From: a virus
Direction: 5' to 3' (one strand)
Virus record (IMG/VR): IMGVR_UViG_3300048834_000330
Location: 1 to 45,370 of that record
DNA: 45,370 bases
The position numbers and the translations under genes were made by a program. This document shows, piece by piece, positions 573 through 45,171 of this stretch. Position 1 is the stretch's first letter, and each line of letters begins with the position of its first letter. Below the pieces are notes generated by a model that saw only the letters and a program-made list of their open reading frames with translations, made no database searches and was not told the DNA's origin.

Positions 573-702
573 GGGTAACGGACCAAGCTGAGCTATGAGC
601 GACGAAATACCGGGACAATGGCACAAGCCAACATGCACGAAACCAGACGGGACGTGCAACTGCGTAGAGCCAAGCGAATTAGCTCCAGCGCGCTTGTTAG
701 CT
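573..702 (-). repeat. attC-like recombination site a
   Basis: Outer core TAAC (576-579) pairs with GTTA (696-699). The inner arm GCTGAGCTA (587-595) pairs with TAGCTCCAGC (680-689), leaving one unpaired base in the right arm. The core GTTAGCT (696-702) resembles GTTRRRY with one mismatch. Known attC sites carry extra bases in the left (L'') arm; here they sit on the right of the plus strand, so the site is oriented leftward. It is the terminal attC of the cassette farthest from intI, and it contains the start codon of the 595 gene. Confidence 0.7.
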
Positions 703-936
703 GGCGTCAAACTCGAAACAACCGAAGCCTGCAAGCAAATGTGGGACTTCTTCGACGACAACCAACCGCGAGAGGTAATGGACGCGCTGACGACGTGGGC
801 AAGTGAAGGCGCAACACTCGAAAAGATATACGGGATCATCATGCACTTCGGAGAACCGAAATTCGTAGGCATGACCGACAACGGAAGAAAGGGGCTGGCG
901 ATGGCGATTGAGTATGCCATACGGCAAGCCAGCTAA
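595..936 (+). CDS. Cassette-encoded protein of unknown function (cassette 5)
   Basis: A 113-residue protein filling the cassette farthest from intI (579-936). Its ATG is inside attC site a and its TAA is the TAA of the AGCTAAC core at 931-937. The N-terminus has three cysteines (KPTCTKPDGTCNC) that could bind a metal. The C-terminal half (from MWDFFDD) is acidic and helical, with a repeat-like region ITT/TLEKIYGIIMHFG. A shorter form could start at TTG 694 or ATG 739. I do not recognise the family. It reads with the phage operon and toward intI. Confidence 0.6.
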   Translation: MSDEIPGQWHKPTCTKPDGTCNCVEPSELAPARLLAGVKLETTEACKQMWDFFDDNQPREVMDALTTWASEGATLEKIYGIIMHFGEPKFVGMTDNGRKGLAMAIEYAIRQAS

Positions 937-1041
937 CGCCAAGCTCATGCGCGGCGGCGATTAACGAAAGGCAAACTATGCGGAAGAAAAACACTCAACT
1001 GACGTGCGCTCCCGCCGTCGTCATGCAGCGCGAGGTTAGAT
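931..1041 (-). repeat. attC-like recombination site b
   Basis: Core AGCTAAC (931-937) pairs with GTTAGAT (1035-1041, a perfect GTTRRRY). The arm GCTCATGCGCGGCGG (943-957) pairs with CCGCCGTCGTCATGCAGC (1012-1029), leaving unpaired bases after GCT and further in, on the right arm only. The unpaired-base position indicates leftward orientation. The central loop contains the ATG (978) of the next gene. Confidence 0.8.
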
Positions 1042-1232
1042 GCGCCATGACCGACAAAGACGGGACGTGCCGCGAACCGGCAACCGTGGAAATCTACGCG
1101 ATACCAAACCAGATGTGGTATCCGCTCTGTGAGAAGCACCGCGTCAACATGCTCGCCCCGACTCGGAAAATCTCACAACCCGATGGCGCATCTAACGCCG
1201 CGCTAAGCGAAGCGGCGGACAGGGCGCGTTGA
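978..1232 (+). CDS. Cassette-encoded cysteine-rich protein (cassette 4)
   Basis: An 84-residue protein. Cysteines and a CxxH-like end (RCAMTDKDGTC ... PLCEKH) suggest a small zinc-binding fold of the kind common in short phage proteins. The start at 978 follows GAAAGG at a suitable distance; in-frame ATGs at 1023 and 1047 are alternatives, but starting at 1047 would lose the first zinc cysteine. The coding region runs about 37 bases past the cassette junction at 1195/1196, so its last dozen residues come from the neighbouring attC and would change if the cassette moved. Function unknown. Confidence 0.6.
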   Translation: MRKKNTQLTCAPAVVMQREVRCAMTDKDGTCREPATVEIYAIPNQMWYPLCEKHRVNMLAPTRKISQPDGASNAALSEAADRAR

Positions 1233-1282
1233 AATTTGCGAGAGCGGTGGCCCGCCGCTTTCGCTTCAGCAAGTGGTTAGGG
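1190..1282 (-). repeat. attC-like recombination site c
   Basis: This is the clearest of the five sites. Core ATCTAAC (1190-1196) faces GTTAGGG (1276-1282). The arm GCTAAGCGAAGCGGCGG (1202-1218) pairs along its full length with CCGCCGCTTTCGCTTCAGC (1252-1270), except for two extra bases in the right arm. Two unpaired L-box bases a few positions apart are what known attC sites show. Leftward orientation is inferred from the arm that carries them. Confidence 0.85.
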
Positions 1283-1309
1283 CACGTCGGATAACAACAA
1301 AACAAAACT

Positions 1310-1576
1310 ATGCACTACAGAAACGGCAGAGAAGCAAAGAACGGCGATAAGGTAGTCCAACTGGAAACATCCAGCGGGAAAATCCTCGCCACCGGACAAC
1401 TCCAAAACGCAGTGGCCGGAAACGACTACTGCAACGGGGAACTGGTGATAACCGGCTACGGCCCGCAAGGCCCGGCCATCATCATCGGCGCGTGTATGTG
1501 CGACTGCGTCCATGTGGATGATGTCGCAACCATCCTCGCGGAAAAGGCGCTCGATAAACGCCCCGCCGGAAAGTGA
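1310..1576 (+). CDS. Cassette-encoded protein of unknown function (cassette 3)
   Basis: An 88-residue protein lying wholly inside cassette 3 (1196-1607). It opens MHYRNGREAKNGDKVV, a pattern resembling small beta-barrel phage proteins that start with 'NGREAKxGD', followed by a glycine-rich beta-type middle and a C-terminal CMCDCVHVDD with three cysteines. The leader AACAACAAAACAAAACT before the ATG is A/C-rich without a clear Shine-Dalgarno. The stop lies 25 bases before the next attC core. No function is assigned. Confidence 0.65.
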   Translation: MHYRNGREAKNGDKVVQLETSSGKILATGQLQNAVAGNDYCNGELVITGYGPQGPAIIIGACMCDCVHVDDVATILAEKALDKRPAGK

Positions 1577-1601
1577 ACCAACGGCACGAGGTGACTAAGT
1601 G

Positions 1602-1711
1602 CCCTAACGGATAAGCTATGAGACCACCGAACAATAATCCCACGAGCGCACCGGGCGTTGTCGAACCCACCGCAGGCGTGGCCGGTGGTTCTCATCAGCG
1701 CATGGTTCTGA
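1602..1711 (-). repeat. attC-like recombination site d
   Basis: Core CCCTAAC (1602-1608) faces a diverged core GTTCTGA (1705-1711). The arm GCTATGAGACCACCG (1615-1629) pairs with CGGTGGTTCTCATCAGC (1683-1699), with extra bases only in the right arm, again after the GCT triplet. The GTTC core departs from GTTRRRY. However, the flanking 12-base inverted repeat (1705-1716 with 1846-1857) shows it is a true cassette boundary. Confidence 0.75.
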
Positions 1712-1893
1712 GGCATGTGATGGCACACTCAGACAGCCCTACGTGGTGCGTGGCGTGCGGCACTTTCGACTGCTACTGCTTCGACGATAGCGGTCAACCG
1801 CATGAATGTGAACCGCTGCCGGAGTCTGAACGCTGGTGGAATCCAATGCCTCAGAACGGTCGGGATCAGAGGCCCGGCGACCAAAACGCATGA
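1618..1893 (+). CDS. Cassette-encoded cysteine-rich protein (cassette 2)
   Basis: A 91-residue reading frame starting inside attC site d. The first ~34 residues are low complexity and encoded by the attC stem-loop. From the in-frame ATG at 1720 it reads as a compact protein with CVACGTFDCYC, a CxxC and CxC metal-binding-like cluster, and an acidic Trp-containing tail. The true start could be 1618, 1702 or 1720. It runs past the cassette junction at 1856/1857 and ends in an ATGA overlap with the first gene of the next cassette. Unknown function. Confidence 0.5.
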   Translation: MRPPNNNPTSAPGVVEPTAGVAGGSHQRMVLRHVMAHSDSPTWCVACGTFDCYCFDDSGQPHECEPLPESERWWNPMPQNGRDQRPGDQNA

Positions 1894-1941
1894 ATACGAA
1901 TGAGACGCAATCGCCGGGTTCTCTGCATCCCGTTGTTCAGC
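1851..1941 (-). repeat. attC-like recombination site e
   Basis: Core TCAGAAC (1851-1857) faces GTTCAGC (1935-1941). CGGGATCAGAG (1861-1871) pairs with CTCTGCATCCCG (1921-1932), leaving one unpaired base. CCCGGCGA (1873-1880) pairs with TCGCCGGG (1911-1918). The pairing is nearly continuous over 20 bp, making this a strong cruciform candidate. It is the attC of the cassette next to intI. Confidence 0.8.
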
Positions 1942-2093
1942 CCACAAGACCGTGGACTCACGAACAAGAATCCGAAGAAATGCTCCGCACCACGGGCAGG
2001 CCAGAAATAAGAGCCTGCGTGGACTGTGGAGAAAATGCCCCCGAACATGGACTCATCTGTGATGAGTGCCGAGAACAGAATGGACTACTATGA
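1890..2093 (+). CDS. Cassette-encoded zinc-ribbon protein (cassette 1, first gene)
   Basis: A 67-residue protein with a clear four-cysteine ribbon near the C-terminus (CVDCG ... LICDEC, CxxC-x10-CxxC). This resembles the DksA/TraR-like or generic zinc-ribbon small proteins common in phages; the DksA acidic tip is not evident. The start at 1890 overlaps the preceding stop (ATGA) and lies in the attC loop; ATG 1980 inside the cassette body would keep the ribbon. Its stop overlaps the next start (2090-2093, ATGA), so this cassette carries two coupled genes. Confidence 0.6.
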   Translation: MNTNETQSPGSLHPVVQPTRPWTHEQESEEMLRTTGRPEIRACVDCGENAPEHGLICDECREQNGLL

Positions 2094-2452
2094 GCGACTG
2101 GAAACGAATCGAAAATATAGATGCCTCAATCCTCGACCGGATCACCGAAGATGAGGTGACGATGTGGATAGCGGCCAGGCTGCAACAAATCCGCGAAACT
2201 CTGCCACAGGTAAGCTGCCTCAGTGTGAATATCCACCGCTTCAACTTCTGCCACGATCCTCATATCAGCGCAGCCTGGGGAATGCACGCCGCCGACAAAT
2301 GCAGCGGGACATCTCCAAGCGTCGCCGCTGCGCTCAAGGCTGTGCGGGACGAGCTGATGGACCATCCCGCGAAACGGGCCGCCGAAGCGCGACGGAAAGC
2401 CAAAGCCCTGCTGGAAGAGGCCGCAGAAATAGAGGCGCTGCCTGTGGGCTGA
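2090..2452 (+). CDS. Cassette-encoded protein of unknown function (cassette 1, second gene)
   Basis: A 120-residue protein. It has an acidic helical N-terminus (MSDWKRIENIDASILDRITEDEV), a central segment with CL, FCHDPH and a glycine turn, and a long Ala/Lys/Glu C-terminal helix likely to form a coiled coil (residues about 85-118). Codon pattern and length make it the most convincing cassette gene. The TGA at 2450-2452 lies in the core of the outer repeat (GCTGAAC) nearest intI. The family is not recognised. Confidence 0.7.
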   Translation: MSDWKRIENIDASILDRITEDEVTMWIAARLQQIRETLPQVSCLSVNIHRFNFCHDPHISAAWGMHAADKCSGTSPSVAAALKAVRDELMDHPAKRAAEARRKAKALLEEAAEIEALPVG

Positions 2453-2494
2453 ACAAGGATTCTGCAACTTAGAAAAGTTATCTGTTCGCTTAAT
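2448..2494 (-). other. Candidate attI site between cassette array and intI
   Basis: Between the last cassette core (GCTGAAC, 2448-2454) and the intI ATG lie only about 40 bases. They contain AACTT/AAGTT and GAACA/TGTTC partial repeats but no long L-box palindrome like the five attC sites. In canonical integrons attI abuts the intI 5' end and is structurally unlike attC, so this position and weak symmetry fit attI. The intI promoter or leader must share the same stretch. Inferred, not proven. Confidence 0.45.
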
Positions 2495-3445
2495 ATGAAT
2501 ACGCAACAAGCCATTGAGAAGATGCGGGAGGTAATGCGGCGCAAGCATTTGGCTCATTCCACGGAGGCCAATTATTGCCAATGGCTGGGGCGATATGCCC
2601 GGTTTGTCTCGGAGCGGTGCACCCCGGCGGATTCGGTGGAACAAAAGCTGGAAGCGTTTTTGACGCAGTTGGCCACGCAGGACGTTTCCGCCAGTACGCA
2701 GAACCAGGCGTTCAATGCGCTGTTGTTCTTTTATCGGGAAGTCCTGGGGCAAACGGTGGGCAAGGTGGATTCGTTGCGGGCAAAAAAGGAGGTGCATTTG
2801 CGCTACGCGCCAGAAGTGGATGAGGTGCGCCGGTTGCTGGCCGCGGTTCAGGATGTTGGCGATTATCCCACGGCGCTGATCGTGAAGCTGATTTATGGCT
2901 GTGGGTTGCGCGTGTCTGAGCCCCTCAATCTGCGGGTGAAGGATGTTTTGCTTCAGGATTCCAAACTGGTGCTTTGTGGCGCGAAAGGGGGCAAGGATAG
3001 GTTTGTGGCATTGCCGTGTTCGCTCGTGCCGGAACTCAAGGCGCAACTGGTCTATGCCAAAGCGGTGGCGGAGAAGGATCGGCTGGCGCAGTTGCCGGTG
3101 AAGTTGCCGGGTCTTTTGGGCACAAAGTATCCGCATTGGCAGTTTGCGCCGAAGTGGGCGTTTGTGTTTCCGGCGCATCGGCCCTGTGAGTTTCGCGGGC
3201 AGGTGGTGCGCTGGCGTTGTCACGAGGCGAACGTGCAGCGGTGCGTGCGCCAGGCGGCCCGGCCGCTGGGCCTGGACATTACGCCGCACCATTTGCGGCA
3301 CGCGTACGCCACGCATTGCTTGAACGCGGGGCAGAATCCGCGGGCGATCCAGCAGGCGATGGGGCACAGCCAACTGGAAACGACGATGGGCTATTTGCAC
3401 GCGGAGGCGTTGAGTGTGAAAAGCCCCCTCGAATTTGCGACATGA
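2495..3445 (+). CDS. intI: IntI-type integron integrase (tyrosine recombinase)
   Basis: A 316-residue tyrosine recombinase. The N-terminal SAM-like DNA-binding domain (about 1-95) is followed by the catalytic domain with R139 (GCGLRVSEPL), K167 (GGKDR), H265 and R268 (HHLRHAYATH), H291 (GHSQ) and nucleophile Y300 (TTMGYLH). Between K167 and box II lies an extra block, KYPHWQFAPKWAFVFP (211-226), matching the KYP....W.W.YVFP insertion that separates IntI from XerC/XerD. In known IntI this segment helps recognise the extrahelical attC bases. It is slightly shorter than class 1 IntI (337). Its stop overlaps the next phage gene as ATGA, so it is co-translated with the operon. XerC-like is the alternative call, made unlikely by the insertion and the adjacent attC array. 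Confidence 0.88.
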   Translation: MNTQQAIEKMREVMRRKHLAHSTEANYCQWLGRYARFVSERCTPADSVEQKLEAFLTQLATQDVSASTQNQAFNALLFFYREVLGQTVGKVDSLRAKKEVHLRYAPEVDEVRRLLAAVQDVGDYPTALIVKLIYGCGLRVSEPLNLRVKDVLLQDSKLVLCGAKGGKDRFVALPCSLVPELKAQLVYAKAVAEKDRLAQLPVKLPGLLGTKYPHWQFAPKWAFVFPAHRPCEFRGQVVRWRCHEANVQRCVRQAARPLGLDITPHHLRHAYATHCLNAGQNPRAIQQAMGHSQLETTMGYLHAEALSVKSPLEFAT

Positions 3446-4437: not shown

Positions 4438-5040
4438 TTGTTTGGCGTGGCTAAGAAAGCGCCAAAATCTGAAACGCGGAAATCTGAAACGCTAAAAGGA
4501 AAGCATCCGGGAGGGCGGCCTTCGGCGTACAAGGCGGAGTTTGCGCAAATTGCTTACCGGCATTGTCTCCTGGGCGCGACGGATAAGGACCTCGCGGCGG
4601 CGTTTGATGTTTCGGAATCCACCCTCAATCTTTGGAAGCAGAAATTCCTCAAGTTTTCGGAGTCCCTAAAGAAAGGCAAGGCGGACGCGGACGCGACGAT
4701 TGCCGAAAGCCTGTTTCATCGGGCCAAAGGTTATTCTCACAAAGCGGTGAAGATCATGCAGCATGAGGGCGTAGCCTTCGACCATGAATACACCGAACAT
4801 TATCCCCCGGACACCGCGGCGTGCATTTTCTGGCTGAAGAACCGCCGGCCTGACCAGTTTCGGAACAATCCCGAGGTGGCGGTGACGGTGAACAATGACG
4901 TGAAGGTGGATTTGGCCAAGCCGCCGGAGGAATGGGGACCGGCGGAGATCGAGGCGGAATTGAAGCGGCGGGGCGCGCCCGTGCCCGAGGCGATCACCAA
5001 AAACGGGAATGGACACGCCAAACCGCGGGGTGGGGCATGA
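4438..5040 (+). CDS. terS: Terminase small subunit
   Basis: A 200-residue DNA-recognition subunit of the packaging motor. GGRPSAYKAEFAQIAYRHCL, LGATDKDLAAAFDVSESTLNLWK (HTH) and SLKKGKADADATIAESLFHRAKGYSH are the typical motifs of this terminase small-subunit family. The start is uncertain: TTG 4438 or GTG 4447, since the ATG at 4431 is out of frame and closes quickly. The N-terminus PKSETRKSETLK is encoded by a tandem AAATCTGAAACGC mini-repeat. The stop overlaps terL as ATGA, the usual coupling of the two subunits. Confidence 0.85.
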   Translation: MFGVAKKAPKSETRKSETLKGKHPGGRPSAYKAEFAQIAYRHCLLGATDKDLAAAFDVSESTLNLWKQKFLKFSESLKKGKADADATIAESLFHRAKGYSHKAVKIMQHEGVAFDHEYTEHYPPDTAACIFWLKNRRPDQFRNNPEVAVTVNNDVKVDLAKPPEEWGPAEIEAELKRRGAPVPEAITKNGNGHAKPRGGA

Positions 5041-6620
5041 GTTTACTGCTTGCGCTCATGGCTTTGATTTCCACCGAACTGCTGCAAGAGCGGTTGCTGT
5101 ATGGCAAGCTCGCCCGCACGAACCTCCTAGCCTTCGCGCAACTCACGCACCCCGTCCCCAACGACTATTTGAACCCGCGCGTGTCGAAATACGCGATCAA
5201 GCCGCATCATGCGTTCATTGCCCGGCAGTTGGAAATGGTGCAGCGCGGGGAAATCAACCGCCTGGAAATCGAACTGCCGGCGCGGCATGGCAAATCCATG
5301 CTGGCGGTGCGCAAGTTTGTGCCGTGGATTAGCGGATTGAAGCCGGACGCCAGTGGCATCGTGGTGACGCACACGGATACGCTGGCGCGGGAGCATGGCC
5401 GGGCGGTGCGCGATGTGTTTCGGATGGGGGCCTACAAGCTGGTGTTCCCCAGTGACCGCGCGGCGTTGCGCGATGACACGCAATCGAGCGATTTGTTGCA
5501 GTTGGTGGGCGGGGGATTGCTGATATTCACGGGCCGGAGCGGCCTGGGGGCTGGGGCGGGGGCGGACTGGTTGATTTTCGATGACTTTTTTAAAAACTCG
5601 GAGGAAGCGCAGAGCCAGACGGTGCGGGATTCTGCCTGGCACACGTTTATTAGCGACTGCCAATCCCGGCTGAACACGGATGTGTCGCCCATCATCCTGA
5701 TCGGCACGCGGCGGCACGAGGACGATGTGCAGGGGCGGTTGTTTGATCCGACGAATCAACACTACGACGAGACGGAAGCCAAACGCTGGACGCGCATCCG
5801 ATTGCCGGCACTGGCCGAGGCGGATGATTTGATGGGGCGGGAGATTGACGAACCGCTTTGGCCGGAGAAATACGGGAAAAAATACTATCTGGCGCGGCGC
5901 AACCACAAATCCGAGATCGTGCGGATGGATCACCAAACGCAAGACCAGTGCAACCCAATTCCCGAGGAAGGCAAATGGTTCAAAAAGGCGTGGCTCAAGA
6001 CTTACACCCGCGCGGAACTGCCCAAGCAACTGCGCATCTACATTGCCTCAGACCATGCGTATCGCATCAAGGAAGCCAATGATTTGTCCTGCCTGCTGGT
6101 GGTGGGGATGGACCCGACCGGGGAGATATGGGTATTGCCAGATACCATTTGGGCCAAGATGGACACGGCGGAGTTGTGTGACGCGATTTTCAAGATCATC
6201 GAGACGCGGCGGCCGGCGCAGTGGTGGGCGGCGCGGGACGCGATTAGCGGCAGCATCATGCCGTTGCTGCGTCGGCGCATGTTGGACACGAAGAAGTTTT
6301 TTTACATTGACGACGAGATTGCGGAGAAGAAGGACCTCGTGGCGCGCTCGGCCTCCATTCGCGGTTTGATGGCGATGGGGATGGTGCATTGGCCGATTGA
6401 GTGGCCGCAGTGGGCGGCCGCGGAAAAGCAGATGGTGAGTTTTCCCGGCGCGAAGGACGATTTGATTGCGGCACTGGCGATGTTGGGCATGGGGTTGGAC
6501 AAGATGAACCCGGCGGAGGGATTGCGGCCTAGTGATGTGCCGAAGAAGGGGACACTGGCGTGGCATACGCATGGGCAGAACAAAGAACCAGAACACGCGG
6601 CGGCCTCGTGGTGGCGGTGA
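5037..6620 (+). CDS. terL: Terminase large subunit
   Basis: A 527-residue packaging ATPase/nuclease. The start is the ATG of the ATGA overlap with terS. ATPase half: Walker A PARHGKS (81-87), Walker B LIFDD (179-183), coupling motif LIGTRRHEDD (221-230). RNase H-fold nuclease half: acidic residues in ASDHAY (D339), ARDAISGS (D401) and KDDLIAAL (D474/D475). Length and motif order are standard for the Terminase_6-type family. The coding region ends inside a small palindrome (6610-6626). Confidence 0.95.
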   Translation: MSLLLALMALISTELLQERLLYGKLARTNLLAFAQLTHPVPNDYLNPRVSKYAIKPHHAFIARQLEMVQRGEINRLEIELPARHGKSMLAVRKFVPWISGLKPDASGIVVTHTDTLAREHGRAVRDVFRMGAYKLVFPSDRAALRDDTQSSDLLQLVGGGLLIFTGRSGLGAGAGADWLIFDDFFKNSEEAQSQTVRDSAWHTFISDCQSRLNTDVSPIILIGTRRHEDDVQGRLFDPTNQHYDETEAKRWTRIRLPALAEADDLMGREIDEPLWPEKYGKKYYLARRNHKSEIVRMDHQTQDQCNPIPEEGKWFKKAWLKTYTRAELPKQLRIYIASDHAYRIKEANDLSCLLVVGMDPTGEIWVLPDTIWAKMDTAELCDAIFKIIETRRPAQWWAARDAISGSIMPLLRRRMLDTKKFFYIDDEIAEKKDLVARSASIRGLMAMGMVHWPIEWPQWAAAEKQMVSFPGAKDDLIAALAMLGMGLDKMNPAEGLRPSDVPKKGTLAWHTHGQNKEPEHAAASWWR

Positions 6621-6744: not shown

Positions 6745-8985
6745 ATGAACGAAACACTTGAATCAAAACCGATGGGCTTTGCGGATCGCATCAAGGCGGC
6801 TGCGGGCGTGGTGTTGACTGGGCGGCGGATCAATCCGCTGGCGGAAGAACCCCAGGAGGGCGAGGCCGGCGAACTGGTAAAGGAATGGCAGACGCGCATT
6901 TTGGAAGCGCGCGAGTTTTGGCAGCCGGTGTTCAAGCGCATCCGGGAGGAACAGGCGTTTGCGGCGGGCAATCAGTGGCCGGATTCGGAGGGCTCGGACT
7001 GGTTTAAGGAGAAGTATGTGGGCGACCGGATTCAACAGATGTTGAACCGGCTGCAAGCGGCGCGCTATGCCAAGAATCCCAAGACTCAGGCGACGACCCG
7101 GGAGCGGATGTCGTTCGAGTTTTGGGATGAATCCGAGGAATCACTGGCCGGCGCGCGGGCATTGCTGGCCGCGGCCCAGCCGATTTTGGATCAAGCCGCG
7201 GTGGCGCTGAACCTGGGGAAGCAGCCGCTGGCACCGCCCCCGCCAGAAATCGAGATGGCGCAAAAGATCGTGGCGGATTACGAGCAGGGCATGGCGGAAA
7301 AGGCGTTGTTCGCCAAAGTGGCGCGGACGGCGGCTTTACTGGTGCAACAGCAATGGGACACGCAAACGCCGGAGTTCATCGTGCAGATGAAGCAACTGGT
7401 AACGCGGGTGGATACCTCGCGCGTGGGCTACATCAAGGTGAGTTATCGCCGGGACGAAGCGCCGCTAGACCCGATGCAGAGCGCCAAGGTGGTGAGTCTG
7501 AAGGCGCGGATGACGACGCTCAAGAGCCAGTTGGACAAGATTGCCGCGGGTGAGATTGAAGCCGACAGCGCCGAGGCGGAGGAAACGGCGATCCTGCTGG
7601 AAGCGGTGACGAAGGAATTGAGCGCGGCGGAAAAGCCGGAGTTCGAGGATGAAGGGCCGGTGGATGATTTCCTGACGGCCACGAGTGTGATTGTGGATCC
7701 GGCGTGCCGATGTCTCAAGGAGTTCATTGGCGCAAGCTGGATTTGCCATGAAATGCTTATGCCATTGGCGGAGGCCGAGGCGGAGCATGGGATCAGCCTG
7801 TTCGATGTGGGGGCGGTGCTGTATGACGATTACGGGCCACAAACCCGGGCGGACAGCCGCAACCAGAAAGCCGAAACGGCCGGCGCGTGCAAAAAGGTGT
7901 GCGTCTGGCATGTGGAGGACAAAAAGACAGGCATGTGTTTTGTGCTGATTGACGGCGTAAAGCACTTCATCAAACCGCCCTATGTGCGGCTGCCCAAGGT
8001 GAAACGGTATTGGTCCATCGTGGCGCTGACGTATCACGTCACGGAAGTGGAGGTAAACGACCCAAAAAATGATGTGACTTGTTACGGCAAGAGCACGGTA
8101 AGGCGGGTGATGCCCATGCAGGTGGACATCAACAGCCAGGGCGAGGAATTGCGGGCGCATCGGATTGCGAACCGGCCGGGCAAGGTGGGCGTGGCATCCA
8201 AGTTTGGGGAGAACGACCGGGCCAAGCTGGCGGCGCCGCGCAGTTCGCATGATTGCATCATGCTTCAGGATTTGCAGCCGGGCGAGAAGGTGGCGGATTA
8301 CCTGCAACCGATGCCAACGACACCACTGGACCCGGCGTTGTATGACACGGCGCAGTCCGATCAGGCGATGTTGCTGGCCGGCGGGGTGCAGTCCTCGAAC
8401 ATGGGCAACCAGAATCCGGGTGAGACGGCGACGGGACAGGCGATTGCGGAGGGCAGCCGGATCAGCGTGGACGACAGCCAGACGCAGGATTTGGATTATT
8501 GCCTGGGGATTGTGGCGCAGATGCACTGGGAAATGAGTTTGCAGGAGATGCCGCTGGAACTGGTGAAGAAGAAGGTGGGCCGGGGCGCGGTGTTTCCGGA
8601 TCTGGCCAAGGACAAGTTTGCGACGGACATCTTTGTGGAGATTGAGGCGGGCAGCTCAGGCAAACCGAATGCGGCGCTGGAAGCGGCCAAGGCGGAGAAG
8701 CTGGGCCCGTTGATCATCCAGGCCATGGCCGATCCGCGGCTGGCGTTCCTCGTGAAGATTTACGCGCGGCTGCTGGATTCCAACATTGATATTGATGAAA
8801 TCATGAAGGCCGGCAGCGCCGGCGGCCAAATGGGGGGACAACCGCAACCAGGTCAACCCGGTCAAGCGCCCGGACCGCTGCCTCCGGGGCAGCCGGCGGG
8901 GAACCTTGTGCCGGCGGGCCAACCAAGACCGCCCCAGTTACCACCCCAACAACGCGCGCAAGCGAGGGCGAGCGCGGGCGTTTAG
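6745..8985 (+). CDS. Portal protein (podovirus type)
   Basis: A 746-residue protein immediately after the terminase genes, with GGGGAA as Shine-Dalgarno. Length, an early EREFW-like segment (LEAREFWQPVFKRIREEQAFAAGNQW) and the conserved GETATGQAIAEGSR near residue 560 fit P22/N4-like large portals that form the dodecameric DNA gate at a head vertex. A helical, Ala-rich insert lies at about 130-200. The C-terminus is a disordered Pro/Gly/Gln tail of about 60 residues (GGQPQPGQPGQ repeats). Confidence is high from position and motifs together. Confidence 0.85.
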   Translation: MNETLESKPMGFADRIKAAAGVVLTGRRINPLAEEPQEGEAGELVKEWQTRILEAREFWQPVFKRIREEQAFAAGNQWPDSEGSDWFKEKYVGDRIQQMLNRLQAARYAKNPKTQATTRERMSFEFWDESEESLAGARALLAAAQPILDQAAVALNLGKQPLAPPPPEIEMAQKIVADYEQGMAEKALFAKVARTAALLVQQQWDTQTPEFIVQMKQLVTRVDTSRVGYIKVSYRRDEAPLDPMQSAKVVSLKARMTTLKSQLDKIAAGEIEADSAEAEETAILLEAVTKELSAAEKPEFEDEGPVDDFLTATSVIVDPACRCLKEFIGASWICHEMLMPLAEAEAEHGISLFDVGAVLYDDYGPQTRADSRNQKAETAGACKKVCVWHVEDKKTGMCFVLIDGVKHFIKPPYVRLPKVKRYWSIVALTYHVTEVEVNDPKNDVTCYGKSTVRRVMPMQVDINSQGEELRAHRIANRPGKVGVASKFGENDRAKLAAPRSSHDCIMLQDLQPGEKVADYLQPMPTTPLDPALYDTAQSDQAMLLAGGVQSSNMGNQNPGETATGQAIAEGSRISVDDSQTQDLDYCLGIVAQMHWEMSLQEMPLELVKKKVGRGAVFPDLAKDKFATDIFVEIEAGSSGKPNAALEAAKAEKLGPLIIQAMADPRLAFLVKIYARLLDSNIDIDEIMKAGSAGGQMGGQPQPGQPGQAPGPLPPGQPAGNLVPAGQPRPPQLPPQQRAQARASAGV

Positions 8986-14645: not shown

Positions 14646-16603
14646 AAACGAAGTTATTTCTAGCACTGTTGTTTCTGGCCGGGCCGGCGTTGGCCATCCT
14701 GCCACCGCCTCCGGCGAGCGTGGATGAAGTGACGGCGGGGACGGACCGTTACAAGTACGTCACATCCTACTCACTGCGCCAGGCGGGCATCAGCAGCCCG
14801 ACCAACGGGATCACGGCGGAGGTGGCCGAAGCCATTGCCATTGGCAGTGATGCCAGCGGCACGAACAGCTTTGCGGGGGATGGGGGCGGGTTGACCAATG
14901 TAACAGCGGCCACAGCAACTCGCGCCACCAATGCGCCCGATGGTAAAACGATTATTTCACGCGAGTCTGCCCTGACCAATCGAGTTTCTTATTTCGGCGG
15001 CAGTGTGGCGATTGCTACTAATAGAGAACCATATTGGCAAGGCTCGTTCGCCACTGGGTTTCAGCTTTATGACACGCTAGCAAATCCGCTCCTGCTGGTT
15101 GATCCAAAAGTTCCAAACGCTGGCGGATATGGCTATTACTGGGGCAGTGCTACAAATCAGTATCACGCCTTTCAGGTTTCTGAAACGCCACATGATGGAA
15201 ATGAGCCGCGCATCGTTTTTAATTTTTTGAGCGAAGATACTTTGGAGCTTTCCAGACAGTGGGGGTTTCGCACAAATAGTCTGACATACCGGATTAGCGA
15301 TATTACCTATGACGAGCTGATCTTGGTGGACGAGAGTCAAAACTTCACCTTTGGCGGCACCAACCAAAACACATATCGCGGTGGCTCAAACTCAATCGTC
15401 ATTGACAATAACGCGATTTCCGCAACCACCGGCACCAACTCACTAACCATTGCTAGCAACCGCGTTGCCATCGACGGCGATGTGTATCGGAACGCCGACA
15501 CTTATTACGGGAGCGCGACTGATAACACGGGCGGATTTTATTTTTGGGATTCTTTGAATGAGCTATATCGTGGGCTAACCTATACTCCCGGCGACGAAAC
15601 TTTTGATCTGAATGCAGCGCTACGGATGAATGGCTCAGCGGTTTTGCAGCTAGGTTCTTACTACGGCAACGGCAGTGGCATTACCAATCTCCCCGTAGCT
15701 GGAATCGACGCCACCGGCACGCCAAGCGGGACTACGTATCTGCGCGGTGATGGGGCGTGGGCGACGCCAGCCGGTGGCAGTGGCGACAGCTACATCTTCA
15801 CCAATGCCGCTGCCGGGGGACTGCGGTTTACTAATGAGTTTGGCTTGGGTGCTTTTGTCACAGGAGGCACAGCCTCTTTCTTAACTGCGACTGGCCTAGT
15901 AACAACTGTCAGTGCTGCCAACACAGCAGTGTATGGGAGTCAGTATATCTCTTATGCAGGAGTTAATGGCATAGATTTGGCCACCGGGTTTACGTTGCTT
16001 GATACTGGAGGTAGTCCTGCTATTCAGCCACAAAGCAGAGTGTTGAATGGTAACTGGAACGCACAAGGCAATCTGGATGTGGATGGTGATTTGAATGTGG
16101 ATGGGACGATGACGGTGACGGATTTGGTTGTCACCAATTTTTATACTGGCATTACCAATGCAACCGGGCTTGGAACTGATGCTGATGGTAAGTTGATTTC
16201 TGTGCCTAATGGACCGTCCATTGTTGGCGCGATCATCTCCGGGGCAAACATCAATTCCGGCGCGCCGCGTTATGTAACGCCAGCAGCAGCCACTTATTCT
16301 AGCACCACCGAATCTTCGGCAGCCATTCCTTGTGTCGGCGGAACATGGTCAAACTTGAACTTCAAAGTGGTCGCAACGCTACAAACCGGAACGAACTTTA
16401 CTGTGACGCTTTGGACTAATGGAGTCGCGAGCCATTTAGCAGGTACAGTGGTGGGAAGCGGAACGGGGATCTATAGTGCGAGCAACTACACCGCCTCGGT
16501 TTACGTGACTAACAACACTCCAATTTCGTTTGCTGTTACTACCACCTCGGGTTCGTCGGTTGCCCCAACAGTTTTAATCACCGCCGCCGTCGCCACTAGA
16601 TGA
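14642..16603 (+). CDS. Tail fibre-like protein with signal peptide
   Basis: A 653-residue protein. It begins MKTKLFLALLFLAGPALA, a Sec signal peptide with ALA-I cleavage. The body has repetitive beta-helical fibre phrases: FAGDGGGLTNVTAATATRA, YYGNGSGITNLPVAGIDATG, GTPSGTTYLRGDGAWATPAG and GNLDVDGDLNVDGTMTV. These are hallmarks of intertwined phage fibres and of fibre-like proteins in Verrucomicrobiota-type genomes. It starts and ends in ATGA overlaps, so translation is chained with both neighbours. A signal peptide on a fibre is odd, as phage fibres normally assemble in the cytoplasm. The middle region (about 15000-15600) has lower GC than its flanks, suggesting module exchange. Confidence 0.65.
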   Translation: MKTKLFLALLFLAGPALAILPPPPASVDEVTAGTDRYKYVTSYSLRQAGISSPTNGITAEVAEAIAIGSDASGTNSFAGDGGGLTNVTAATATRATNAPDGKTIISRESALTNRVSYFGGSVAIATNREPYWQGSFATGFQLYDTLANPLLLVDPKVPNAGGYGYYWGSATNQYHAFQVSETPHDGNEPRIVFNFLSEDTLELSRQWGFRTNSLTYRISDITYDELILVDESQNFTFGGTNQNTYRGGSNSIVIDNNAISATTGTNSLTIASNRVAIDGDVYRNADTYYGSATDNTGGFYFWDSLNELYRGLTYTPGDETFDLNAALRMNGSAVLQLGSYYGNGSGITNLPVAGIDATGTPSGTTYLRGDGAWATPAGGSGDSYIFTNAAAGGLRFTNEFGLGAFVTGGTASFLTATGLVTTVSAANTAVYGSQYISYAGVNGIDLATGFTLLDTGGSPAIQPQSRVLNGNWNAQGNLDVDGDLNVDGTMTVTDLVVTNFYTGITNATGLGTDADGKLISVPNGPSIVGAIISGANINSGAPRYVTPAAATYSSTTESSAAIPCVGGTWSNLNFKVVATLQTGTNFTVTLWTNGVASHLAGTVVGSGTGIYSASNYTASVYVTNNTPISFAVTTTSGSSVAPTVLITAAVATR

Positions 16604-27256: not shown

Positions 27257-30200
27257 ATGCCGGATATTTTCGATCAAATAGCCCCGGAAACCTCAGACGC
27301 CGGCGACATCTTTGACCAGATTGCGCCGTCTGGACTTCATCCTGATACCCTCGCCCAGTTAAACCGGGACATTCGCCTGACGGAAGGCGGCCGGCAGATG
27401 GGCGCGGGCAATGATCAGTTGCTTTCGGCCGTGGTGGATAGTGTTGTTCCGGACCCGCCCACTCCCCAAGAATTACGGCAGCGCGAGATTGCAAAAGCCG
27501 CAGGGGTTGAAACCATCCCGCTTGGGTTGCGGGTGGCGTCTGGACTGGATACAGGCATCCGGCAAGGCATGGCTACGCCCGCGCGGCTCGTGCATGGCGC
27601 GGCGGACCTGGCTTTGGGAGCAGTCGGCGCGGGCAATACTGCCCCGGCGCGGTGGAACGCGGACATGCTCCGCCAATACGCCCAATGGGAAGCCGGGATG
27701 AACGCGCGGGACGTGGCGACGTTTGGGGACAATGACATTGCCAACCAACTTGCCAGCGGCACAGGCCGGGCGGTGACGGAATTGCCGCTTTACCTCGCTC
27801 CCGGCATGGCGGCGGCGAATCCCGCGCAAGCCGTGGCGCGATCTGCAGCAGCCGGCGGGGTGGTCGGTGGCGGCACGCAATACGCCCAGGACCGTGGCGA
27901 AGGACGGGGCCGCGCGGATGCGGCCACGTATGCGACGGCGAGCGGTTTGATTACGGCGCTGACGACTCGAGCGTTTGGCGCGACGGGTGCGGAGTCTGTT
28001 TTCCGCAATGAAGGGGTGAGCGGGTTGCGAAATCGCGTCCTGCAGGTACTCAAAGACGCCGGATTGGAAGGCGCGGAGGAAGCGGCGGACCAGGTGCAGC
28101 AGGACTTTCTGGAACGCTACTCGCGCAATCCAGACAAGCCGGTGGATGCCACGCTGAAGGAAGTTTTGATGGCGGGCGCAATCGGCGGAATCGTGGGCGG
28201 CGGGGTGGCGGGAACAGCGCAAGGCGTGCAGGCCGGGGCGGGGCTCGCCAGTGACCTGCTGACCATGCGCAATCCCGAGCAGGACATGATGGGCAGTCCG
28301 TTGGATACCCTGGCGGGGGAGGCGGCTCGCGGGGACGCTCGCCCCACCGGCGGCGAGCAAAACCAGAATCAGGAGGTATTGGATGCCGCAGCGGCGGAGT
28401 TCAACCAGCAGCGCGCCGCGGAAACGCGCGGAGACATCTTCGATCAAGTAGCTTCCGAGTCGCAATCTGCGCAATCTGCCAGTGCTTCCAATACCGATGG
28501 GAAACAACAAACGCCCGGCGCGGCGGTGACGACTGACGCCCCGGCGGGCGCTTCTCCCACCCAAGCAGCCAAGGTGCGCGCGGAATTGCAGGCGTTGCCG
28601 GGAGCCAATCAAGATTTGGTCGAGGATGGAGGATTGAAGATGGAGGATGGCCGGAAAGCGCCGGCGTTGACGGCGGAACAGACGGACGCCGGGTTGCGGG
28701 AGGCGAGCCCCGAGGACGCGGCGCCCGTGACCAAAGGCGACTTGAAGGCGCTGGTAAACTTTTTCCAGAACGGCGGGCCGAATCCGTTTGCGGCGAAACC
28801 CCAACCGATTCAACAGAAGGAAACGAAGGAAACGGAGAACTTACCTTCCGGGACACCGGATGCTCAGGGAAAGCCCCCGATAACTTTACCCGCGTCCGCT
28901 GCGCCGGTGGAGTGGACATCTGACGAACCGGACGGCGAGTTGCAACGGCGAAATAAACGCGAGTTTCTGAATCAACTACCAAAAGCAGAGCAGGCTGCGT
29001 GGGGAAAATACTTTGACCAATGGGGAGTGGATCAAACACTGGTTTCCAGAGTTGAGTTTCTTGAGGATGAACTGCAAAACATGGCATCCGGTGGAGTTGA
29101 TCTGCTTGGGGCGCTTCAAACTGAAGCGGTAAAAATGCCATTGCCGGAGTATTGGCAACGATTGGAACGCGCGTATCAAAAGAATTTCCCGCAAACCATC
29201 ACTGGCTCCAATGTGCAAACGGGCACTGCAATGCCGGTGCCGCCACAAGCGGGCGGGGCAATCCGGCAAGGGAATGAACGGCAAGGGAATGAGGTCACCA
29301 CCGCAAAAGTAGATTTCATCGCCCCGGAGACGCCGGCGGCGCAGAAGATCGAGATTAAGAACGGGGACACGGTTTCCGTGGTGACTCGCGCGGGGGCGAA
29401 ACCGCGCAATGCCCGCGTCATCCAGATGCAGCCGGATGGCAGCGCGCAAGTCGTGGTGGCGGGCGAAAAGACGGCGCGGATGGTGAACGCCAACCAGATT
29501 ACGCCCAGCCGGCGCACGGTGACGTTGCAGGCCAAGGCGGACGAACTGGCCGGGTTTACCCCGGAACAGCAGACGCAGATCAAGACTCGCGCGGCGGAGT
29601 TTCGGCAACTGGTGGAGGATTACGCGCCCCAACTGGAATGGACGCCCGCCGAGGCGTATGACGAAAGTTTCGGCGCGGACACCAAGGACGTGGGTTTCCG
29701 CAAGGCGGAGTTGCGCACCAATGCCATCCGGCAGGCGATGCGCGCGGTGTTCCCCAACGGACAGGAAAACAGCCAGGTGGATCAGGCCAATGCCCTGCCG
29801 AAGTTGGAGGCGTATTTGCGCCAGCAATTCCCCGGTGACAATTCAGTTGCCAAACGCCGGACGTTGGAGGAATTTGGACGCAGTGAAACCCCACCCCAAG
29901 AGACTGCCGCCGTTGAGCGCGACCAAGCCACTCTCGACCAACTCGCCGCCGCTAATCCTCGAAAAAGTTACTTGCAAGGACTCCGCAGTGTTGGCCGCAC
30001 TGGACGAACTGGGCGGGGACAAGGTGGACTTCGACAGCGCGGAGCAGGGGCAGGCGTTCTTCCGAGCACTGGCGCAAGCGCGGTCACGGAATTAGAACGC
30101 ATCTTCGGCGTTCGGATCATCTTCGTGGATGGGGCTGAGTTTAACGGATTAAAAGTCTCCGGCAGCAAAGTCATTCTAATCAACACCAAGTCTCCCCGGG

Positions 30201-33200
30201 CCACGATGGCGATTGCCGGGCACGAGTTGTTGCATCATATCAAGGCGGTTCACCCCGGATTGTATGCGGATTTCGTGGCGCAGGCGCGGGCCCTGCTGAA
30301 GAACAGTGAACAATTCCGGGCGGAACTGGCGCGCAAAGGTTACTCGAATCTGACGGAGGACGTGGTGACGGAAGAAATGTTTGCGGACGTGCTGGGGGAC
30401 GCGGTGCTGGACCCGGCATTCCTGCAACAATTGGCGAAGTCGGAGCCGAACTTGTTCAAGCGGTTCGCGCGGACGGCGGTGAAGTGGCTGGAAAAACTGA
30501 TTGCCAAGGCCAAGGCGTTGACGGGATTCGATTCCGCGCAGTATGTGACGGACCTGACGGAGATGCGGGAACAGTTGCTGAACCTGTTGCGGGAGGCGGG
30601 AAGGCAGACGCAGTTTCGCAATGCGGGCATTGCGGAGAATGAAGAAGGCGGAATGCAGAATGAAGAAACCTTCTCCCGCCAGCGGATGCAACTGAGCAAC
30701 GCGACGATCACGGCGCCGGGACTGGTGGACATGGGGGATCGGTTTTCCCTGACGGCGCACCACGGCACGCCGCATAAGGTGGACAAGTTCACCACGGCGA
30801 AGATCGGCACAGGCGAAGGCGCGCAGGTGTATGGGTGGGGACTTTACTTCGCGGAAAATCCAGCCGTTGCCGATGTCTATAAAGAAAACCTGAGCAAACA
30901 GTATCCGACCAAGATTGAGTACAAGGGCAAGAAACTCTCGCCAGATGAACGCCTGCAACGCGAGAATGATTACAAACTGATTACGCCCGAGGAAAAGGCG
31001 GCAATCATGGTGGGGCATTTTGGGAAGGACGGAGCGATTGAGCGGCTGAAATCTGACAGGGATTACATCCAACAGGCATCCCCCTATGATTTGCAGGTGG
31101 ACAATCCGACTTTTGACAAAGCGGCGTCCCTGAAGTGGCTGGCTGAATCTATTGGCGCGGTGGCGAACATCAACGCCGCGGACATTAAGGTGGAAAAACC
31201 CGGAGCGACATACACCGTCACTCTGAACGCCGAGCCCGAGGACTTGCTGGATTGGGACAAGCCATTGAGCGAGCAGAGTGAGAAGGTGAAGCGCGCAGTT
31301 AGTAGTTTAAGTGTTAATGAAGGACCCAATGCGTCTGGCCAACTGATTTACTCGGCCATAGCCAACTTTCCAAGTGATTATGATGATCACAAGATGGCAG
31401 CAGCATCTAAACAATTGCTGACCGCCGGCATCAAAGGCATCCGGTTTCTGGATCAGGGGAGTCGAGGCCAAACCGACGTTTTTGAAAGTGGCGGCAAGTG
31501 GTATGTGGTCGGGGACAAGTCATCAAAAACAGCCAAAGAGTTTGCCACAAAGAAGGAAGCGGATGATTACGCTGATTCACTGCCTAATCGAACCTACAAC
31601 TACGTCATATTTTCCGACGACGACATCACGATCACGCACGAGAACGGGCAGGAGATTACAGCGCGGGACATGTTCTCAATGGAAGGCGGGGACATGTTTG
31701 GGTTTGCTGCGCCGGAGAGTGTGGCGGAACAGAAGCAGCGAATTAAAAATGAGAAATTAAAAATTCAAAATGCCAAGGCCAAGGAAGCCATGCAGGAACG
31801 CGCGGGGGCGCGGTTGATCGGCAAGGACCTGGATACCACCCAGGAAATGTTCGGCGCGGAAGTCAAACGCGACAAAGCCGGGCAGGGGGATATGTTCAGT
31901 TTGGAGAAGAAGCAATTTCCAGAACGGTTTGCGCTGGCAAAACCAATCAAAGGCCCTACCGGAGCAAGCATTGTTGGCTATGAGTGGCGTTCGACAATGG
32001 GAGAGAAATACAGCGCCCGCGAGGGGGGCATGGTGGATGCGCGCGTTTCGGATTGGGATAATGCCGACGAATCTACTGGCACCGGGCGGGCAATAGTGCA
32101 TGTGTTTTATGTAGAGCATCCCAACGGAACAGTTCACCCCGAGGGAATCCGCAGCGCGCAGACCGTGCTTGGCATCAACGAAAGCCGATTGATGACCATT
32201 GCCAAAAAGGAGCGCGCCGCACAGCAATACCGCCAAGACCAAGAGCGATCGGAGATGGCGAGCTATGACAAGGCTGCGGTAGCAACCGCCCAAGAAGCCG
32301 CCCGCGATTACCGCAAAGTGAACTACAGCCCAATGCGGACGTTTGAGGAAAACAACGATGGATTCAATGAAAGCGCACTGTTTGAGAAGAACGGGAAATT
32401 TATCCGGCGGAACTGGAAATCAGCGGAGCGGATGCAACGCAATGGGTGGACACTGGTTAAGGACGACCCGGCGCGAACTGGCGGAACAGCTAAGGCGATT
32501 GATGCAGTTCGAGAGACTGAGCCGGAAAGCCAATCTAGTGGTGGGTTTCCCCAAGAAATAACCGATGCAGTAAGGGACTGGCGCGGCGCAGAAAAGCGGT
32601 ATCGGCGCGCGAAAAGGCAAGATCCTGGTGACGTTGAAGATGCCCAAGACGCGCGGGAAGAAGCTGAAATTAACTTTAGGATGCTCGCGCAAAAACACAA
32701 CATCACCCAAGCGCAATTTGATGAACTTACCGAATCAGCAAAGGCGACCGATACGGAGCAAATGGGTGACATGTTCAGTCGGGAGAAAGGGCAATCCGAG
32801 TTTACCAAGCTTCAGGCGGACATCACGGCGGCGGAAGCGGAGTTGATGGATGCGATCCGCAACCATATGACCCCGCCGGAAGGGGTGCGCAAGGCGGAGG
32901 CGTTGCAGGCCAAGAACGCTGCGGCGGCGAAGTTGAACCGGCTTTTGGTGCAGCAGTTGAAGCTGATGACCAGTGCCAATGTGGACGCCGCCCGCTCGCC
33001 TGAGCAGACGGCAGAGATGATCAGCCAAACCGTGGATTTGTTAAACCAGTTGAGCGATGAGATTTCCACGTTCAACGCGCGCAGTCAGGAAGTCCCGGCA
33101 GACCTGACCAAGTTACGCCAGGATTTGCAGACGCGGTTGAATCTGTTGAAAGGCTGGACCGATGACCAGATTGACAAGGAAGCGCAAGGCCGCGTAGAAC

Positions 33201-36200
33201 GCGACAAGCCGGAGAGTCTGGAAAGCCGGATGCGCTACATGGAAATCGAGGGCGCGACGAATCCCAGCAAACTATCGTTCCCATACTGGTATGAGCGGTT
33301 CAAACTGGGACTGAAGAAGTTCACCAGTCCGATCCCGGAACTGCCGATGTTCGGCGACAGAGCGCGGTTTACGGCGCTTTTCAAGCGTGGGTATCGGCTT
33401 TTTTCCGTGGAGAACAACCGGGTGAAGAAGGAGGCGGCGGAGAAGGTGCAAAAGGTGTTGGATCCGTTGGCAAAGTTGGGCCGCAAACCGGCGGACAATG
33501 ATGCGTTGCAGCGGTATTATCGGCTCTCGGAACGGTTCGCCAATGCGCGCAAAGCCGGGGACGAAACCCGCATCAAGGAACTGGCGCAGCAGCTCTACGA
33601 CTTGGAACAAACCACGCTCAATAAAGACCCGATGAACCTCTTTCGGCGGATGGTGTTGTATCGGGATTTTTATTGGCGCGGCACGTACCTAAAAAACGAG
33701 AACGGCAAACCCATCACATTGCCGGGTGGATTGACGGCGGATGAAGTCTTGGTGCAGTTGCGCAAGTTGACCAAGGCTATCAGCGAACACCCGGACGGCT
33801 TGGCCATCACGGAAGCGTTGCGCCGGCATTACGCGTTGATGGAGGAATTGCGGCAAAGCATCCTCGATCACGGCGAAATCATCCCCGAGGCGTTGAACAA
33901 CCCTTGTTACTGGCCGCATTTGCTCTCGGAGTATTACAGCGACAACCTGGGGCGGGTGAATCCGACGACCGAAGAATCATTCCGCAAGTACCTGATTACG
34001 CCCGTCGGTTCGGACCGACTTATTCAAACCGATTACATCAAGGCCGTGTTGCAACACACAGCGGAAGTCTTGAGCCACAATGCCCGCGCGGATATGGTGG
34101 AGAAATACTGGGCTGCCTACGATGTGAGCGAACAACTGAAGGAGCAGCACGGGGACAAGTGGGATCATGCCTACAACCTGCCACCCGGTTATTCGTTGTA
34201 TGCGCCTTACAAGAAACTTCCACTTCGGGCGACCTATATCCTGCCAAGGGATGTTCTAGCCAACCAACTTGGCGTTTTGCTGAACGCCGGCGATTTGCGG
34301 ACCAAGATGGTCGGGAAAGTGGTAAAGGTGAAGCCGGAGGATTTACGCACGGCGATGGTGGCGGGTGAAAAAATCAAATGGGCGTTACCGACGGAAATTG
34401 TGGACGCGCTGCATGGGATTGAGAAGCGCGAGGCGGCGTTGATGAATCAGCCAGGGCACATCGGCGCGGCGGCGGGCAAGTATGTGCGCATGGGACAAAA
34501 CATCTGGAAGAAATTGAAGCTGTTTGGCCCGACCAGCTTTGCGCGCTACACCTTTGGCAATCTGACGACGGATGCCATTGACAAGGTTTTGGCGGGTGAT
34601 CCGAAGATTGCGGCGCAGATGCGGCGCGCGGCCCGGGAACTGTGGAGCGCGGACGATGGCGACCTGAGCCCGGAATATAAGGCTGCGGCGCGCGAGGGCG
34701 TATTTGAGACGGTGACAGCGGCCGAGGTGGGGGAATTGGAGAAAATCCCCGAGTTCAAAGAGTTCCTGACCACAGGCCAGATCCGCAAGGTGGCGGCGGA
34801 CAAAGTGCTGGGCGCGCCGGCGGCGTTGAACAGCTTCCGGGAAGCAGTGTTCCGGTATGCCAAGTTTCTGGCGGACGTGGAACGGTTGCGCGCGGGTGAA
34901 GAACTGCCGTTTACCGGCATGTATCACAAGGACATTGATGCGCTGGGCGCGATGCCCAACGGCAAGAAACCCGTGCTGGAAGGCGATGAATTGATTTACG
35001 CGCGGGCGGGGGAGAACAGCCTGAAGCATTTTGGCGATTACGCCATGCTCGCGGTCAACACTCAATGGCTGCGCCGTTACCTGATGCCTTTCGTGTCCTG
35101 GACGGACGTAAACCTGCGCTATCACGCCACGCTCGCGGCCAACATGATTGACGCTTTCAAACCGGGCGCATCGGATACGCAGCGAGTCCATGCCTTGCGC
35201 GTTTCCGGGGCGAAGATTGCCCTGACGCTGGGCTTGATCGGGCTGGGAAAAGAGTTGTGGAATCAGGTGGGCGGCCCGTTGCTTGGCCTGTGGAGAGATG
35301 ATGACGACTTGGAGAACAAACTGAGCCCAGCCGACCGGCGGCGCGGGCACGTCATCTTGGGCAAGGATGCCAACGGCCAGGTGATGGTGGTTTACACTCC
35401 GAGCGCCTGGGGCGACGTGGCGGAATGGGTGGGCGGCCAAAATTTTAAGAGGTTGTTTCTCGAATTTGCCCGAGGCGAAATCACGATGGATCAGTGGCTC
35501 GTGGATTACACCAAGCAGGTATTCCCGGATTTTGCCAACAAGTTGATCCAGAGCGCCGGCCCGGTCGTCAAAGGCCCATACGAATTGGTGAGCGGCAAGG
35601 CGGTGTTCCCGGATTTCTTTGACCAACGGACCATCGCCAAGTCGGAGCAATGGTGGCGATTTGTGGGCACGATGACCGATGACCGCATGGCCAACTGGGT
35701 GCGCGGGGTGTTTGATGAGGATTACTACAATCAGCCGATGGCGGAACAGTTGCAACAGATCGTGCTTCAGGTGCGGCGTCGTGACCCGCTGGCGTGGGCG
35801 TTTTACGAAATCAAGGACAAGGTGGGCGATTGGGAGTTTGAAAAGACAGGCAAACGGAACAGTATGGGCGATTACACCGCGCCCGAAGCCATGGCCTTGC
35901 GCAATTTCCGCAAAGCCATCTATCGAGGGGACGTGGTGGCGGCGGATCGGTTCTACAACAGTCTGCTGCGCTACGGTTACACGGCGAAACGATTGGATCA
36001 GAGCATCCGCAACCAAGCGCCCTTGGCGGCGCTGAACGAGCAGCAGCGCGAACAATTCCTTTCTGAGCTATCCGCGCGGGATCGGAAACAGTTGGAACTG
36101 GCGGAGGCGTATTACGCGCGGTTTTCAGCGATGGACGGCCGGGAAAAAGATTTGTTCCCGGAAGAAGGAGACGAACCTGCACCAGACCCATCACTTTTGC

Positions 36201-44941: not shown

Positions 44942-45171
44942 AAGGCTTGCCCATCACGCAGGAGGAACATGAGGCGGCGCGTCGCTATCTGGCGGCGAGC
45001 ATCGCGGCGGGGCGCACGAAGGTGACGCGGAGTTTTGCGGTTGTGCCGCGGGAGCGGAAGAATTGGACGTATTCCATGAGCCCGCGGGCGGTGAAGCAAC
45101 GCGCGGCGCGCGGGGTGGTGATACCGGCGGATGGCAAAAGGCCGGGAAAAGCTGAAATGCTGACACGCTGA
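44938..45171 (+). CDS. Small phage early protein (complete copy of the 2-88 fragment)
   Basis: A 77-residue basic protein (MKGLPITQEEHEAARRYLAA ... MSPRAVKQRAARGVVIPADG), started by the ATGA overlap. The C-terminal 27 residues match the fragment at the left edge except after an 8-base indel that changes the last codons. Function unknown. Confidence 0.55.
   Translation: MKGLPITQEEHEAARRYLAASIAAGRTKVTRSFAVVPRERKNWTYSMSPRAVKQRAARGVVIPADGKRPGKAEMLTR

Follow-up and report, generated by a model that had tools for sequence, protein, structure and literature searches.

In a standard integron, the cassette array lies 5′ of the integrase gene intI, and the polarity of the attC sites and the genes of the cassettes are both directed away from intI. 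Integrons are usually viewed as bacterial devices that are occasionally picked up by phages, and both integrons and attC clusters with methyltransferase cassettes have already been reported in phages (Qi et al. 2023, PMC9892861). The temperate-phage integrons of that study (Vibrio Va_90-11-286_p16, Shewanella M16-3, and E. coli P1) represent portions of host or class 1 integrons: the Vibrio IntIA is 75% identical to that of V. cholerae, the Shewanella integrase is 95% identical to that of S. oneidensis, and the third is class 1. Virulent phages (TJE1, PH101, and P12002L; PMC9892861) carry clusters of attC sites lacking an integrase (CALINs), and in the atypical integrons of Treponema intI is transcribed toward attI (PMC3607928). 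Here, we describe a locus at positions 573–3445 of a 45,370-base viral record (IMG/VR IMGVR_UViG_3300048834_000330), the whole of which we refer to as the window and whose strands are used below. We consider it highly probable that this locus is a phage-adapted integron in which the attC sites keep their normal polarity relative to intI and the cassette genes are inverted. This reading draws on sequence comparisons that address the identity and clade of the integrase, the attC sites and their polarity, the boundaries of the mobile unit, the coding strand, and variation between sister phages exactly at attI.

The locus resembles the temperate-phage integrons in having intI, attI, and attC cassettes within a phage genome, and the group to which it belongs likewise includes methyltransferase cassettes; however, unlike those host-derived systems, its integrase has no match above 38.6% identity among the phages of INPHARED (best full-length match). 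It resembles the CALINs in its small attC cassettes amid phage genes, some of which are methyltransferase genes in those clusters, but CALINs have no IntI and the window has intI at 2495–3445, so that it is not a CALIN; furthermore, the attC sites of TJE1 lie on the gene strand, whereas those of the window lie on the strand opposite the genes. In contrast to the Treponema arrangement, attI lies upstream of the intI start and it is the cassette genes that are turned. With chromosomal and class 1 bacterial integrons the locus shares IntI, the attC architecture, an attI beside the 5′ end of intI, and attC polarity away from intI; it differs in the opposite orientation of genes to attC, in a phage-borne IntI clade, in a motif (AACA..GATT) about 30–60 bp from the intI start, and in start and stop signals within attC. 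Where the textbook arrangement is gene then attC, read away from attI, the window has attC then gene, read toward attI. A search of the literature that did not extend to subscription papers and preprints returned no later report of inverted cassettes or of an IntI lineage specific to phages. The sequence-only reading that had singled out this locus proposed a complete integron (intI, attI, and five attC-bearing cassettes) in a phage operon, and our results support that proposal, with none of the three outcomes that it had named as refutations being obtained: the five sites match an attC model, the recombinase groups with IntI and not with Xer, and relatives differ in gene content at the locus. 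Its further statement that phage integrons are rarely or never described is superseded by the 2023 report.

To locate attC sites we used a covariance model made only from 28 bacterial attC sites in canonical orientation, including sites of a class 1 integron (aadA, cmlA, and qac), which was run over the whole window on both strands with speed filters off. The five top matches are exactly the five sites described from the letters, all on the − strand as canonical top strand: the attC of cassette C1 at 573–702 (13.0 bits), of C2 at 931–1041 (13.1 bits), of C3 at 1190–1282 (19.7 bits), of C4 at 1602–1711 (22.4 bits), and of C5 at 1851–1941 (18.2 bits). Each is also found by arm pairing, and the next-best match in the window (11.7 bits) lies outside the locus. 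The perfect inverted repeats beginning with GTT were present as first described (10, 14, 10, 12, and 12 bp at 696/937, 1035/1196, 1276/1608, 1705/1857, and 1935/2454 for C1 to C5), and chains of at least three such units did not occur in five shuffles. The imperfect palindromes of 91–130 bp were likewise recovered with unpaired bases of the attC type; in each, AAC is followed by an unpaired spacer, then 3 bp, an extra base, a further stretch of about 5 bp, and another extra base. An Rfam scan returned no match. Unconstrained single-strand folding, which the sequence-only reading had suggested as a check, set few sites apart from shuffles: the attC of C5 (fold z about −3 on both strands) and the attI hairpin stood out clearly, and most other sites did not. 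Given how weakly folding separates sites, we relied on arm pairing and the covariance model to call both the sites and their polarity.

Since the GTT/AAC inverted repeats are symmetric, that test alone cannot give polarity. An arm-pairing detector applied to sites upstream of intI in the window and in 22 loci of the phage-borne IntI clade placed the extra base in the intI-side arm in 57 cases and gave the opposite polarity in none; cellular arrays show the same attC polarity, as does a class 1 control array (L141), the genes of which are on the − strand. With intI on the + strand, the bacterial covariance model gave 49 of 50 matches on the − strand at 11 further loci and 37 of 38 at another 22. 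A control with the opposite relation is provided by the TJE1 phage cassette cluster, in which three attC matches of 24–25 bits fall on the gene strand and the wrong strand scores 10.8 for the same site. The coding strand was assessed in three ways. A codon-usage score assigned clade cassettes to the + strand in 25 cases and to the − strand in 4, with 6 undecided, compared with 3, 15, and 7, respectively, for cellular integrons. Among open reading frames (ORFs) of clade arrays, 115 on the + strand match 14 Pfam families and 103 on the − strand match none. In homologous cassettes (L012/L037 and L004/L012), mismatches are enriched at third positions of the full-length + ORF (0.41–0.43 vs 0.21–0.24). 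Together, these comparisons indicate that attC polarity and attI position are standard and that the cassette genes are inverted, reading toward intI.

The intI gene (2495–3445, + strand) encodes a protein of 316 amino acids that we assign to the integron integrases. The best NCBIfam model for the product is TIGR02249, integron integrase (243 bits vs 110 for XerC), and the closest PDB structure is VchIntIA (2A3V, E = 2e-44). The IntI-specific insertion KYP...W...FP, by which the recombinase had been recognized in the sequence-only reading, aligns with the insertion of VchIntIA. The catalytic residues R139, K164, H265/R268, H291, and Y300 are kept in the clade alignment, and a phylogenetic tree places the protein among integron integrases with Xer as an outgroup (support 100/100), in agreement with an IntI that is far from XerC/D.

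The predicted attI (2443–2494) comprises the end of C5, with the AA^C at 2452–2454, followed by the clade motif AACA..GATT..., which precedes the start codon of intI by 41 bp. Most clade members have this motif about 30–60 bp before the intI start; the version in the window is AACAAGGATTCTGCAACTT at 2452. Two sister phages from different metagenomes, L144 and L146, are 99.98% identical across 8,996 bp rightward from attI. In L144, a cassette that we call X is directly joined to attI, the junction reading AAAAAATCTAAC and then GATGTTTCTGC; in L146, some 1.45 kb of other cassettes intervenes between cassette X and attI, where AAATACAAC meets GATGTTTCTGC; the AA^C junctions are clean. A second pair, L147 and L149, is 89% identical from the attI AAC through intI and dissimilar upstream. 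Contig L145 starts at the attI AAC and contig L008 starts one base before it, which would be expected of assemblies that end at points of variation between populations. The difference between L144 and L146 by a cassette block with a clean junction at attI indicates that the lineage is active in cassette exchange, and we posit that the IntI of the window phage is active as well. The alternative that this phage carries a decayed cassette cluster and an inactive recombinase, with no exchange of its own, is quite improbable. It would accommodate the lack of direct variation in the window's own population, as well as the result that cassette proteins C1 and C5b have no relatives in 2.9 million viral contigs, which leaves the cassettes untraceable elsewhere except for C3, whose left attC and start of body share about 82% identity with a cassette of the phage contig L037 (with an IntI only 38% identical). 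However, IntI is intact with conserved catalytic residues, the five attC sites are undecayed and accompanied by an attI of the clade type, and exchange is evident in the sister phages L144 and L146.

The limits of the mobile unit were read from three recent duplications. In L014, 5566–5819 is repeated at 7717–7970 (254 bp, 99.6% identity); in L155, 5613–5980 is repeated at 7582–7949 (368 bp, 100%); and in L025, 6863–7167 is repeated at 7543–7847 (305 bp, 100%). The second copy adjoins attI in the first two and is the intI-proximal cassette found in the third. Each duplicated copy has the left AAC and the right AAC as its limits, encloses the left attC and the body, and leaves out the right attC. 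These limits, with the intI-proximal position of the second copies, point to a unit composed of attC then gene, with new copies joining at the intI end. A normal gene-then-attC array with attI at the left edge (near 573–696) and intI displaced to the far end, which is how the sequence-only reading had placed both the cassettes and attI, was considered first, and we regard it as less probable still than decay. Most ORFs do fit better in a unit composed of the body and its right-hand attC, and the symmetric repeats give no polarity; but the duplications take the left attC and omit the right and place the copies at the intI end, the difference between L144 and L146 falls at the junction on the intI side, attC polarity was obtained from two independent methods, and most of the clade has the conserved attI motif upstream of intI. 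We rejected this arrangement on the strength of the duplications and the L144/L146 comparison: attI falls in the interval that separates the final cassette from the start of intI, contrary to a left-edge position, and by unit boundaries and attC polarity every attC is part of the same unit as the gene to its right.

The IntI of the window belongs to a clade that is largely found in phages. Among the 80 loci listed from 85,462 species genomes, the nearest are two short contigs of Verrucomicrobiota metagenome-assembled genomes (MAGs; L057 and L058) with 56% identity, and nothing else exceeds 43%; the best match in PLSDB has 39.8%. In contrast, IMG/VR contains more than 30 contigs with an IntI 41–79% identical to that of the window. 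The tree unites (support 100/99) 33 phage contigs, one further viral contig (L158), the two MAG contigs, and a prophage of Geminisphaera (L065), so that L057, L058, and L065 are the only members from cellular genomes; the IntIs of cellular Verrucomicrobiota (L094, L100, L122, and L134) are placed outside. Terminase models match at least 8 clade records. The prophage, at 3612–15995 of L065 in the isolate genome of Geminisphaera colitermitum TAV2, has, in this order, genes for a DUF2303 protein, a methyltransferase, IntI, a terminase small subunit, and a portal protein, the methyltransferase gene lying directly upstream of intI and replication and terminase genes on its other side; a search of this locus for attC gave no significant site and we do not claim it as an intact integron, but it is a possible laboratory model. 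In L154 (289–11985), the IMG/VR name of which points to an isolate genome, the phage is Mu-like (Gam, head protease, and major head protein) and has its clade IntI amid the head genes. These placements indicate that phages and prophages from many lineages carry the clade and that the integron of the window is not a captured host integron. Least probable of the alternatives is that a phage took up a typical bacterial integron with cassettes in standard orientation, like those that Qi et al. (2023) described from Vibrio and Shewanella phages, since, although the complete phage integrons so far described are of that kind and cellular Verrucomicrobiota have integrons too, the IntI of the window is not nested in cellular integrons (its clade stands at 100/99 apart from the four Verrucomicrobiota IntIs), the Geminisphaera member has genes for DUF2303, a terminase small subunit, and a portal protein as neighbors, and the standard cassette cluster of phage TJE1 has attC and genes on one strand, the opposite of the window. 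The exchange of cassettes with host arrays, which had been envisaged from the sequence, finds no support, as the IntI clade is separate and genes of such polarity would be antisense to the normal integron promoter.

Several relatives deserve mention in their own right. The L025 IntI is almost identical to that of L079, a contig binned as a Myxococcota MAG and perhaps a prophage. Virus Rctr41k (KX853513; L137) has a gene annotated xerD (4680–5678) that encodes an IntI-like protein 38.6% identical to that of the window and, as in the window, ends a run of small + genes; we examined it as a possible named carrier of this device and rejected it, as no attC was found and its IntI falls outside the clade. 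In remoter viral IntI contigs (L024–L037 and L040), the phage nature of which was checked by terminase searches only and which lie outside our principal claim, + genes are favored 11 to 1. In viral contigs whose IntIs belong to other clades (L024–L037 and L158–L177), attC polarity is likewise directed away from intI, and the genes of several of them share the strand of intI; inversion of cassettes may have had more than one origin.

Several observations weigh against a phage-adapted integron with inverted genes. The TIGR02249 score of 243 falls short of the curated cut-off of 265. The strand of attC that recombines is set by an extrahelical G (Bouvier et al. 2009, PMC2727003), and the strand predicted to recombine in the window has a C as its extra base in place of this canonical G. 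About two-thirds of the predicted cassette ORFs overrun the unit boundary into the next attC, so that their last residues would change when a cassette moves. The evidence from L144 consists of a contig end holding 127 nt of cassette, and no variation is seen at the window's own array, so that the case for activity draws on relatives with IntIs 73–79% identical. Finally, the members of the clade are nearly all metagenome contigs.

The five cassettes of the window, all on the + strand, illustrate how genes and sites interlock. C1 (579–936) has an ORF at 595–936 with its TAA stop inside the CTAAC box; C2 (937–1195) has an ORF that begins at 978 or 1047 and ends at 1232, running into the next attC; C3 (1196–1607) has an ORF at 1310–1576; C4 (1608–1856) has an ORF at 1618–1893 that starts within its own attC; and C5 (1857–2453) has two ORFs, 1890–2093 and 2090–2452, with ATGA overlaps at 1890 and 2090. 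Starts inside attC are found at 595, 978 (uncertain), 1618, and 1890. Across the clade, cassette ORFs start within their own attC in 52 of 84 cases and stop within the next attC in 55 of 84. Of 89 clade attC sites, 64% have the stop-start overlap ATGA on their coding strand, compared with 32% (sd 4%) in dinucleotide shuffles; on the non-coding strand the values are 15% and 14%. We did not obtain a confident protein match for any of the five cassettes of the window, and clade cassettes mostly encode small proteins without one. The recognizable cargo of the clade (N6/N4 and C5 methyltransferases, Dam, MT-A70, Mom, PAPS reductase, and HNH) suggests an anti-restriction role. Two separate observations concern attC sites of relatives. 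In L012 (7676–7762) and L021 (7424–7510), unlike cassettes have attC sites 95% identical, as if attC had been swapped between bodies. In L014, an attC-like stretch at 16056–16142, 94% identical to the attC of the duplicated cassette, lies 7 kb downstream of intI and outside the array.

We propose that IntI would join a circular cassette to attI just upstream of its own start codon via the usual folded single-strand attC reaction and that cassettes would be excised by exchange at AA^C. The array would be read by phage-operon transcription from the left, toward intI; a consensus scan at attI found no sigma-70-like site facing the array, the consensus being one that may not cover the promoters of the host. 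The ATGA in attC would end the gene spliced upstream and start the cassette's own gene, making attC both a mobility site and a translational coupler to the preceding gene. New genes would enter next to intI, at the greatest distance from the operon promoter, and a likely use would be the changing of early anti-restriction genes (methyltransferases and Mom). The genes are probably reversed so as to plug into the phage operon.

More broadly, we lean, if only somewhat, toward the view that phages of Verrucomicrobiota, and perhaps of other hosts, have an integron world of their own, with a phage-only IntI clade, a reversed cassette pool isolated from bacterial integrons because its genes would be antisense there, an attC hairpin that acts as a translational coupler, and early anti-defense genes swapped in a running operon. 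A phage-resident integron lineage would offer a site-specific route for swapping single early genes, for which the usual answer is only homologous recombination and mosaicism. It also poses a testable question, namely whether the polarity of cassette genes is fixed by integrase chemistry at the site or only by the position of the promoter; site chemistry looks unchanged here, with polarity following the operon. For annotation pipelines, the implication is that attC strand and gene strand may disagree.

The setting of the locus is that of a phage operon. The ends of the 45,370-base record overlap, with 2–279 and 45,085–45,370 being 93% identical and the last ~110 bases identical, which suggests that the record, though classed as linear, represents nearly all of a circularly permuted genome and includes two strain variants. 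From the terminase, portal, capsid, and tail genes named in the sequence-only reading, the terminase and the capsid (major head protein) were recovered, and the window also encodes a phage integrase and a repressor, all outside the integron locus. On the left, the integron is flanked by a phage gene (96–299, + strand) that occurs in the integron-free L182 and in L004; on the right, it is flanked by a phage gene (3442–4134, + strand) with 59% identity to its L182 counterpart, no integron lying between the flanks there. L182 otherwise has the same gene order as the window, and in L004 the integron module is inserted before another gene of the same operon. No intI was seen in L049, L054, or L055, which are members of the phage group of the window. 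The module is optional within this group. Elsewhere in the window, 27257–36235 encodes a protein of 2992 amino acids without a PHROG match that is polyvalent-protein-like and partly present in L004.

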